Source of the DNA: Acidimicrobiia bacterium
GTDB lineage: Bacteria; Actinomycetota; Acidimicrobiia; UBA2766
NCBI GenBank assembly: GCA_020850945.1
Contig: JADZDR010000012.1
Coordinates: 1 to 42,349, forward strand
Length of the DNA stretch: 42,349 nt
Direction of reading: 5' to 3'
Under the pieces are notes generated by a model. That model saw only the letters and a list, made by a program, of their open reading frames with translations, was not told where the DNA came from and did no database searches. Each line of letters starts with the position of its first letter. Position 1 is the first letter of the stretch. The position numbers and the translations under genes are program-made. Of the stretch, positions 39,391 through 41,931 are shown in pieces.

Positions 39391-40416
39391 CTATCTCGCC
39401 CCGCGTCGCGGTACGCGCTTGCCGTGCTTCGTCGGGGTGCCGCGGTCGCCGCCGTGCTGTGGCCTCGGGCGCGGGCCACGCTGCTCGGCGGCCCGGTCTG
39501 CGGCCTCGTAGGCGTCGACGATCTTGGCGACTATCGGATGGCGCACGACGTCTTCGCTGCCGAGCTCCACTCGCGCGACTCCTTCGACCTCGAACACGGC
39601 CGGTGGCACGGACATGAGCCCGGATCTGTCCGAACCGGGCAGATCGATCTGCGTCACATCTCCGGTGACCACCGTCTTGGCGCCGAAGCCGATCCGGGTG
39701 AGGAACATCTTCATCTGCTCGGGTGACGTGTTCTGGGCTTCGTCGAGGACCACGAAACTGTCGTTGAGAGTACGTCCCCGCATGTACGCGAGGGGGGCGA
39801 CCTCGACCGAGCCGCGCTCCATGAGGCGGGCCGTCGCCTCCGGGCCGAGAATGTCGTAGAGCGAGTCGTAGAGGGGCCGCAGGTAGGGGTCGACCTTGGC
39901 GAGCAGGTCGCCCGGCAGGAAACCGAGCTTCTCGCCTGCCTCGACGGCTGGGCGGGTGAGGATGATCCTCTGTACGACGCGTTCCTGGAGGGCGCGGACG
40001 GCCGCAGCCATGGCGAGATACGTCTTGCCCGTCCCAGCCGGACCGATCGCGAACGTGACGGTGTTCTGCTCGATCGCTTCGGCGTAGCGCTTCTGGCCGA
40101 CGGACTTGGGGCGCACGATGCGGGCAGGTGTCGAGATGATGCTGTGAGAGAGCACGTCCGACGGCACCGCCCCGCTGCGCACGATCCGCACGGTCCGCTG
40201 GAGTGCTTCCCGGTCGATCGTGTGGCCCTGCTCCACGAGACGGATCAGGTCCTCGTAGAGGGTGAGGACGGCCTCCGCCTCGGCGGCTTCGGCCGTGACC
40301 GTGATCTCGTTGCCCCGCACGAGGATGTCGGCATCGAACTCCGCTTCGACCACGCGGAGCAACTCGTCGTTCTGGCCGAGCAGCGCGACCATGAGTGCAT
40401 TGTCGGGTACGTGCAC
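39391..40416 (-). CDS. phoH: PhoH-family ATPase
   Basis: The protein has 341 residues in the PhoH family. Landmarks are Walker A GPAGTGKTYLAMAAAV, the Walker B region LNDSFVVLDEAQNTSPEQMKMFLTRIGFG, and VVTGDVTQIDLP. An N-terminal RNA-binding-like domain is rich in small helices. The C-terminal tail is basic (RPRPQHGGDR and KHGKRVPRRG). The GTG at 40416 gives MHVPDNALMVALLGQND. A CTG at 40446, preceded by AAAGGTGA at six bases, would add ten residues (TESTLAEVKV) and has the better ribosome site. PhoH-like proteins are linked to RNA metabolism, in keeping with the neighbouring ybeY and era. Confidence 0.94.
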   Translation of the reverse strand: MHVPDNALMVALLGQNDELLRVVEAEFDADILVRGNEITVTAEAAEAEAVLTLYEDLIRLVEQGHTIDREALQRTVRIVRSGAVPSDVLSHSIISTPARIVRPKSVGQKRYAEAIEQNTVTFAIGPAGTGKTYLAMAAAVRALQERVVQRIILTRPAVEAGEKLGFLPGDLLAKVDPYLRPLYDSLYDILGPEATARLMERGSVEVAPLAYMRGRTLNDSFVVLDEAQNTSPEQMKMFLTRIGFGAKTVVTGDVTQIDLPGSDRSGLMSVPPAVFEVEGVARVELGSEDVVRHPIVAKIVDAYEAADRAAEQRGPRPRPQHGGDRGTPTKHGKRVPRRGAR

Positions 40417-40499: not shown

Positions 40500-40506
40500 C
40501 CTCCCC

Positions 40507-40560
40507 CTCCTCCACGTGGGCGTACTCAACCACACCTATCGTGGTTCACTACGCCCACGT
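40507..40560. repeat. REP-like hairpin unit, copy 1
   Basis: The 54-base unit is repeated at 40579 with one difference (40535 C versus 40607 A). Inside it, arms 40514-40533 and 40541-40560 (ACGTGGGCGTACTCAACCAC against GTGGTTCACTACGCCCACGT) pair in 18 of 20 positions around the seven-base loop ACCTATC. Confidence 0.85.
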
Positions 40561-40578
40561 AACGCCGCCGACCCCACT

Positions 40579-40632
40579 CTCCTCCACGTGGGCGTACTCA
40601 ACCACAACTATCGTGGTTCACTACGCCCACGT
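40579..40632. repeat. REP-like hairpin unit, copy 2, containing the mtaB stop codon
   Basis: The second copy is offset by 72 bases. Arms 40586-40605 and 40613-40632 surround the loop AACTATC, and the stem can extend two more base pairs here. The mtaB stop codon (minus-strand TAG, 40621-40623) and last residues TTWA are encoded by its right arm and flank. Two copies in tandem next to a gene end resemble the paired REP elements of other bacteria. Confidence 0.85.
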
Positions 40633-41931
40633 GGTTGGGCCGGATACGCCGGAGGCGTCGGCGTGGGCCACGCGCACGTCCACCACGGAGCCGACGGCAG
40701 CGGCGGGGCCGTGCGTCGTGACCTTGAGGTAGTTGTCGGAGGTACCCGTCGAAGTCCCGGCCGACGCGCGCTCGATCATGACCGGGAGGGAGCGGCCCAC
40801 GAAACGGCTCCCGAACGCGGCCGTGAGAGCGGCGCCGGCACTTCGCATACGGGCGGAGCGCTCCTTCTTCACGCTCTCGTCGACCTGGTCCCGAAGGGAC
40901 GCCGCCTTCGTTCCCGGGCGCGGGCTGTACCTGAACACGTGCAGGCCCGTGAGCTCCGATCCGGCCACGAACTCGAGGCCGCGACGGAACGACGCATCCG
41001 TCTCCCCCGGGAAACCGACCATCACGTCTGCCGTGAGACCGGCGTCGGGACCGAGCGTGTCACGCGCGCGCCGCAGGACCTCGGCGTAGCCGGCGGTGTC
41101 GTAGGGCCGCCCCATCGCCCGCAGGGTCATGTCGTCGCCCGCCTGCAGGGGGACGTGGAGGTGAGGGCACACGCGCGGCTCGGCCGCCATCACGTCGAGC
41201 AGCTCCTGAGACACGCAGTCCGCCTCGATCGAGGACAGCCGCAGCCACGCGAGCTCGGGTACGCCGTCGAGGACGCGGCGCACGAGACGCGAGAGGGCGC
41301 CGCTGTCGCCACGGTCGACTCCGTAACGGCCGAGGTGCACGCCCGTGAGCGCGACCTCACGCACTCCCATCTGCACCTGCCCCCTGATACCGGCGACGAC
41401 ACCGGCCTCGGGTCGGCTCACCGGCGCACCCCGTGTGGTCGGGATGATGCAGAACGTGCAGGCGGCGTCGCATCCGGTCTGCACGCCGAACGATCCGCGC
41501 ACCGCGAACATCGCCTCACCCGCCGCAGCGGACCGCGCCGTCCCGGCACAGGCCTCGATGCCGCCCAGGCCGAGGACCGTGCGGGCGAGCGCTTCCTTGT
41601 CCTCGTTCGGGACGACTGCGACCACTCCGGGGACCGCGCACTCGGCGGGTGCGGCCACGGCATGGCAGCCGGTCACGACGACTCTCTCGCCCGCGGCGAC
41701 AGCCCGCCGGATGAGCTTGCGGGACGACTTGGAGGCGTCGCCGGTGACCGTGCACGTGTTCACGATCGTGACGTCGGCGCAGGCGTCGGCTCCGCAGGGA
41801 ACGAGGTCGGCGGCCGTCAGCGCCCGTGCCACCTCGTCGCTCTCGGACTGGTTGAGGCGACAGCCCAGCGTGAGGATGCGGAACGTCGAACCCGGCACGG
41901 GGTTCGGTTCAGACCCGGGCGTCCGTGACAC
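40621..41931 (-). CDS. mtaB: tRNA t6A37 methylthiotransferase MtaB
   Basis: The radical-SAM enzyme has 436 residues. The N-terminal UPF0004 domain has three Cys for one cluster in LTLGCRLNQSESD, VNTCTVTG and VTGCHAV. The radical-SAM CxxxCxxC is CDAACTFCIIP. The C-terminal TRAM domain ends SDNYLKVTTHGP. MtaB adds a methylthio group to t6A37 of tRNA, chiefly lysine tRNA. The C terminus (GVSGPTTWA) and the stop codon come from the REP-like hairpin. The GTG at 41931 overlaps the upstream regulator by 23 bases. A GTG at 41898 is possible. Confidence 0.93.
   Translation of the reverse strand: MSRTPGSEPNPVPGSTFRILTLGCRLNQSESDEVARALTAADLVPCGADACADVTIVNTCTVTGDASKSSRKLIRRAVAAGERVVVTGCHAVAAPAECAVPGVVAVVPNEDKEALARTVLGLGGIEACAGTARSAAAGEAMFAVRGSFGVQTGCDAACTFCIIPTTRGAPVSRPEAGVVAGIRGQVQMGVREVALTGVHLGRYGVDRGDSGALSRLVRRVLDGVPELAWLRLSSIEADCVSQELLDVMAAEPRVCPHLHVPLQAGDDMTLRAMGRPYDTAGYAEVLRRARDTLGPDAGLTADVMVGFPGETDASFRRGLEFVAGSELTGLHVFRYSPRPGTKAASLRDQVDESVKKERSARMRSAGAALTAAFGSRFVGRSLPVMIERASAGTSTGTSDNYLKVTTHGPAAAVGSVVDVRVAHADASGVSGPTTWA

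Follow-up and report, generated by a model that had tools for sequence, protein, structure and literature searches.

A direct hairpin pair at the end of mtaB

The window, a 42,349-nt stretch of DNA (contig JADZDR010000012.1 of an Acidimicrobiia bacterium), carries two 49-nt quasi-palindromes between a gene for an mtaB-like methylthiotransferase and phoH (Table 1). Together with their flanks they form a direct repeat (40500-40560 and 40572-40632). An initial reading of this region, made from its letters alone, had described two 54-base units, 53 of 54 identical and 72 bases apart, and letter comparison bears this out, with a single difference between 40507-40560 and 40579-40632. The same reading gave each unit a 20-bp stem and a 7-base loop. 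The 7-nt loop stands, and the stem is corrected to 18 of 20 pairs because 2 of its 20 positions are unpaired. In each window hairpin, 11 bp are followed by a 3-nt bubble, the middle T-A of which is able to pair, and then by 6 bp more; the arms are 90% and 91% complementary. Folding predicts very stable structures on both strands, far beyond those of shuffled sequences; the z values in Table 1 refer to minus-strand RNAs, which none of 200 shuffles equaled. At the window hairpins, no Rfam family matched above its gathering score; matches below threshold, the best of them to a miRNA family (26.9 bits against a cutoff of 197), were taken as chance.

In profile searches, the product of the mtaB-like gene exceeded the cutoff for TIGR00089, and its best match was to TIGR01579 (MtaB), at a score of 331 that is below that model's cutoff of 357. 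The reading frame closes with CCA ACC ACG TGG GCG TAG, finishing at 40621. Since ACG TGG GCG TAG consists of hairpin 2 bases, the protein ends in PTTWA-stop with its T, W, and A taken from the hairpin, just as the sequence-only reading had proposed for the stop codon and last residues. Under the explanation favored below, this supply of a stop codon to mtaB would be a by-product of the hairpin element.

Table 1. Features of the mtaB-phoH region in window coordinates, and hairpin-bearing junctions shared by the two carrier genomes (G000, the window's own; G001, its congener)
Feature	Position	Strand	Remarks
phoH, downstream of doublet	39391..40392	-	Start uncertain, 40392 or 40416
Hairpin 1 (49 nt)	40513..40561	+	Covariance model match G000:C12:40513-40561, 70.6 bits; fold z -7.8
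Hairpin 1 outer left arm	40514..40524	+	Outer core ACGTGGGCG, near-constant across G000 and G001
Hairpin 1 bubble, 3 nt	left 40525..40527 (CTC), right 40547-40549 (CAC)	+	
Hairpin 1 loop, 7 nt	40534..40540	+	Length fixed; sequence depends on the site and is mostly common within a site
Hairpin 1 outer right arm	40550..40560	+	
Spacer, 23 bp	40562..40584	.	Hairpins 1 and 2 lie 72 bp apart, start to start
Hairpin 2 (49 nt)	40585..40633	+	Direct repeat of hairpin 1; covariance model match, 71.2 bits; fold z -9.6
mtaB codons T-W-A-stop from hairpin 2	40621..40632	-	
mtaB-like methylthiotransferase	40621..41898	-	Own gene caller; start uncertain, alternative from 41931
Shared junctions, G000/G001			L005/L119, L007/L120, L013/L136, L028/L123, L042/L102, L077/L141, L002/L089

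In two genomes of the same family (G002 and G003), mtaB adjoins or lies near phoH without a hairpin, and MtaB has other C termini (GVRGMLV in G002, GVSGTTSLAGRAQAAAP in G003). Between mtaB and phoH, G003 has a short gene (L109, 945-1289) that by eye looks HIT-family-like; it is absent from the window. No clear mtaB orthologue was found in the congener, only homologues of ~30% identity, so mtaB is not comparable there. These hairpin-free mtaB ends, together with one orthologous junction that is filled in only one of the two species, favor the earlier suggestion of insertion at a gene end. The result named beforehand as contrary to that reading, a unit unique in the genome combined with the same mtaB end in all relatives, was not observed.

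A dispersed family in two genomes of one genus

The window's genome (G000; 3.9 Mb in 97 contigs, 98.5% complete) yielded 130 strand matches to a covariance model, corresponding to 65 hairpins. These occupy 42 sites, of which 21 are single, 19 double, and 2 triple. The unit is thus dispersed genome-wide. An 18-nt arm pattern with at most 3 mismatches gave 142 matches in this genome against 10 for the reversed control, which places the repeat far beyond chance. The only other member of the genus among the relatives available, the metagenome-assembled genome "Actinobacteria bacterium ATB1" (G001; 87% complete), has hairpins with an altered inner stem, of which at least 89 were counted, distributed over 70 sites within the 68 stretches taken; this count is a lower bound because 150 candidates were scored in the whole-genome search. 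No hairpin was found in G002 or G003, and a class-wide scan of 395 genomes gave clear matches in G000 and G001 only. One weak match from that scan, in G214 (E value of 3.4e-5), proved by its letters to be a different palindrome and was dropped. In a collection of 84,980 species, from which the window's own genome may have been left out, a pattern scan retrieved ATB1 contigs only. Searches of viral contigs (0 matches) and plasmids found no hairpin.

Placement at gene ends

Gene contexts were assigned with our own codon-based caller rather than from curated annotation. On this basis, the 42 sites of G000 fall into 16 convergent, 23 tandem, and 3 divergent junctions, compared with 4, 29, and 3 among the gene pairs of the window; convergent junctions are accordingly enriched (16/42 versus 4/36; Fisher P = 0.009). 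Thirty-seven of the 42 sites are free of called genes, and at 37 of 42 a gene oriented toward the hairpin has its 3' end no more than 64 bp away. The G001 sites comprise 29 convergent, 27 tandem, and 8 divergent junctions; at the other 6, one side has no called gene. Convergent junctions are enriched here also (Fisher P = 1e-5), and the median distance to the nearest 3' end is 19 bp for the 61 sites having one. The hairpin provides a stop codon at 3/42 sites in G000 and 13/70 in G001. Eight G001 genes (L085, L091, L101, L127, L131, L135, L139, and L146) share a TWAD or TWVD C-terminal tail because their stops fall in the same hairpin frame.

Oriented by the bubble, hairpins at G000 tandem sites run opposite to the upstream gene in 15 cases and with it in 11, with 8 undetermined; among the first 28 G001 hairpins, 5 were opposite and 3 the same. 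Orientation is therefore about even, which fits a DNA rather than an RNA function. No TTTT occurs within 12 nt after the hairpin in any of 142 3' approaches (0/55 in G000 and 0/87 in G001), and a fixed RNA role was rejected on these two grounds.

Two further features of the surroundings were seen in both species. Within 120 bp of hairpins, for example in the flanks of L041, L144, and L158, solo ACGTGGG/CCCACGT motifs reach 3.7 to 4.2 times the density seen farther away, and some of them form short tandem arrays (17-19 bp). The flanks of oriented hairpins are C-rich on the left (47-48% C) and G-rich on the right (40-41% G).

Doublets and helical spacing

Partners within doublets are direct repeats, judged by direct over inverted identity, in 40 of 42 steps (23/23 in G000 and 17/19 in G001). 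Loops are identical between partners in 16 of 23 steps in G000 and 5 of 19 in G001, and partner identity within a G000 site is 0.956. Because partners within sites are nearly identical, the doublets may be recent duplications, with the 61/62 length set by a copying machine rather than by selection.

Spacings fall into classes (60-63, 71-73, 83, 91-94, and 104 bp) separated by steps of ~10.5 bp, the helical repeat of DNA. In G000 they are 61 bp (15 times), 62 bp (4 times), 71 bp (once), and 72 bp (3 times); in G001 they are 60, 62 (8 times), 63, 71, 72, 72, 73, 83, 83, 91, 94, and 104 bp. The best-fitting period is 10.4 to 10.5 bp, with an R of 0.89 in G001; R reaches 0.97 in G000, but the 61/62 class dominates there and any nearby period fits. 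Outside the 62 class, phasing is based on 13 spacings in all. The distinct values among them fall on a 10.5-bp ladder (P = 1.5e-4), and the phasing of four non-62 spacings first seen after the idea had been formed gave a P value of 0.024. Spacer sequences differ across sites (similarity of 0.43, versus 0.35 for shuffles, in G000); therefore, the equal spacing was not simply copied along with a composite element.

Stem sequences and shared junctions

Within G000, the stem is near-constant and shows no compensatory change in an unoriented alignment of 48 copies. Between the two species, the outer core ACGTGGGCG is kept and inner pairs are altered on both arms. These changes, which represent few evolutionary events counted over many sequences, lie chiefly at columns 11-39 (U-A to G-C) and at columns 13-37 and 17-33 (A-U to G-C). 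An asymmetric bubble is present in both species; of 85 sequences, 48 lack pairing at columns 14-36 and 53 at columns 15-35. In G000, a decayed arm at L018, upstream of C26:14055, resembles the G001 stem type (cacgtggacggattgaac) and possibly survives from an earlier state of the family.

The neighboring genes of the 42 G000 sites were compared by BLAST with those of the 70 G001 sites. Seven junctions (Table 1) proved common to both species, with hairpins at a matching gene end or in a matching intergenic gap. For the majority of G000 sites, no counterpart was detected in G001. On an estimate built on a guessed number of gene ends, 0.5 to 2 shared junctions would be expected by chance against the 7 seen (Poisson tail of 1e-6 to 0.005). 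At these junctions, the stem is of the G000 type in all 11 hairpins from G000 and of the G001 type in all 10 from G001. Judged from the sequences, this looks like concerted evolution or like repeated insertion at one place, and the sharing of the seven sites could be due in part to insertion hot spots. One convergent junction holds a doublet in G001 and a gap of ~11 bp in G000; no target-site duplication was seen by eye at this one filled/empty junction.

Relation to known repeat systems

RAYT transposases are the usual explanation for REP-like repeats, and the sequence-only reading had drawn such a link for the window pair. PF01797 had no match in G000 or G001 and one subthreshold match in G002; the RAYT model NF047646 had none in G000 to G003, with controls, including Escherichia coli, positive. 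Since neither carrier has a detectable RAYT/Y1 transposase, the RAYT part of that reading is unsupported. Its comparison with paired REP elements survives in part: the repeat is dispersed, REP-like, and located at gene ends, but its pairs are direct rather than inverted.

According to the available portions of PMC3733652 and PMC2817692, REP elements are multicopy short palindromes that lie at the 3' ends of genes, whether the neighboring genes are unidirectional or convergent, and occur as singles and as pairs; in the first of these sources, their dimers are usually inverted and the ability of their termini to provide stop codons is already on record. As a short extragenic palindrome with 65 copies at 42 sites in G000, singles and pairs, and stop codons supplied to genes, the window family resembles REP/BIME systems in all of these respects except the direction of its pairs. 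It differs in the lack of a RAYT found, in a stem of 20 positions rather than 5 to 13 bp, and in doublets that are head-to-tail and phased by helix turns. It also has no unpaired GTAG or GTGG tag; in alignments A1 and A2, the two ends pair as ACGT with ACGT, and no constant tag is seen beyond them. CGTC-tagged REPs (Rickettsia RPE and Neisseria dRS3), as covered in the available text of PMC3733652, are likewise palindromes without a dedicated transposase that can sit inside reading frames, but their tag is unpaired, their dimers are mostly head-to-head, and their stems are 8 to 9 bp. In the window family, CGT lies paired within the stem; no unpaired CGTC tag was found, nor an 8- to 9-bp stem with a 4- to 5-nt loop.

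Pseudomonas REPIN pairs are inverted and tied to RAYTs. They share with the window family the character of paired repeats that spread within a genome lineage (available portion of PMC3116915). The window family differs in that its pairs are direct and their spacers vary across sites. Integron attC sites resemble the present hairpins in their imperfect pairing, their bubble, and their variable loop. The word Actinobacteria is absent from the available text of PMC3733652, and a literature search, covering mostly open-access papers, returned nothing relevant on such a family in actinobacteria or on ATB1. Our reading draws on the portions available of PMC3733652, PMC2817692, and PMC12306157.

Interpretation

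On the evidence of copies and place, the window pair represents one doublet of a REP-like family that is new and RAYT-less (probability of about 0.9). For the phased direct doublets, the best explanation, held tentatively and at somewhat less than even odds, is a putative protein that binds the palindromes as duplex DNA, on a single helix face. Counted in its favor are the copy number, the placement behind genes with an excess of convergent junctions, the even orientation, the helical steps in spacing across dissimilar spacers, the species-typical stems at shared junctions, and the solo motifs concentrated near sites. The near-identity of partners, the small number of spacings outside the 62 class, and possible insertion hot spots count against it. 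The copies are probably double-stranded binding sites, although the persistent bubble in both species and the concentration of paired changes at three stem positions tell against duplex binding, and recognition of a single strand therefore fits too.

The strongest rival is a selfish, REP- or MITE-like hairpin element copied on single-stranded hairpins by a transposase of a kind other than Y1/RAYT, with the phased spacing as the ruler of a nucleoprotein complex that copies beside an existing copy and gene ends as tolerated targets. We consider this quite possible, if less so than duplex binding. It would account for the orthologous junction that is filled in one species and empty in the other, for near-identical partners within sites, for the conserved bubble, for species-specific stems (as separate bursts), and for the finding of only 7 of 42 sites shared, from which high turnover would follow. 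It must also accommodate the lack of a Y1/RAYT gene and of a target duplication visible by eye, and the seven shared junctions with replaced stems would require repeated reinsertion at the same spots. Bidirectional transcription terminators, or hairpins that protect RNA 3' ends and are kept for RNA structure, are improbable: stability on both strands and a location behind genes and between convergent genes suit them, but T runs do not follow the hairpins, no compensatory change is seen within G000, and termination needs neither a conserved primary sequence nor phased doublets.

Two readings tied to known enzymes fare worse. Classical REP elements of a RAYT, as described in the available portion of PMC3733652, agree with the family in copy number, place, and the provision of stop codons; nonetheless, that reading is largely refuted and very unlikely, since no RAYT was found in G000 or G001, neither GTAG nor CGTC occurs as an unpaired tag, the dimers are direct where those of REPs are inverted, and the stem lies beyond the REP range. 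Least credible of all are integron-like attC recombination sites. The G000 arms happen to include RYYYAAC...GTTRRRY, which we take to be the attC motifs R'' (RYYYAAC) and R' (GTTRRRY), but the G001 arms lack them, which contradicts this reading. The sites are also dispersed rather than in arrays, and no integron integrase (TIGR02249) scored over the cutoff in the four genomes, a cutoff that 0 of 14 controls reached either.

Under the duplex-binding explanation, the palindromes of this genus-specific family would come to lie immediately after stop codons or replace them, and each 49-bp palindrome would be a putative double-stranded site of a trans-acting protein. A second copy would arise by local duplication and be kept when the two lie on one side of the helix, which would bring the bound proteins into contact. 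The inner stem would have changed in concert as the protein changed, or through gene conversion between copies. From the place of the hairpins, and from the gyrase model proposed for E. coli REPs (available portion of PMC3733652), we infer a probable role at transcription ends, as a supercoil or nucleoid boundary. A broader form of the proposal, in which the sites make up a dispersed binding network of a putative chromosome-organizing protein, the helix-phased doublets act cooperatively, and protein and sites coevolve, with concerted rewriting of some 65 to 90 or more sites per species, is on balance rather unlikely.

An actinobacterial family with no detectable RAYT, helix-stepped direct doublets, and concerted stems would offer a testable signature of a putative duplex-binding partner. 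Such a family separates what spreads a repeat from what uses it.
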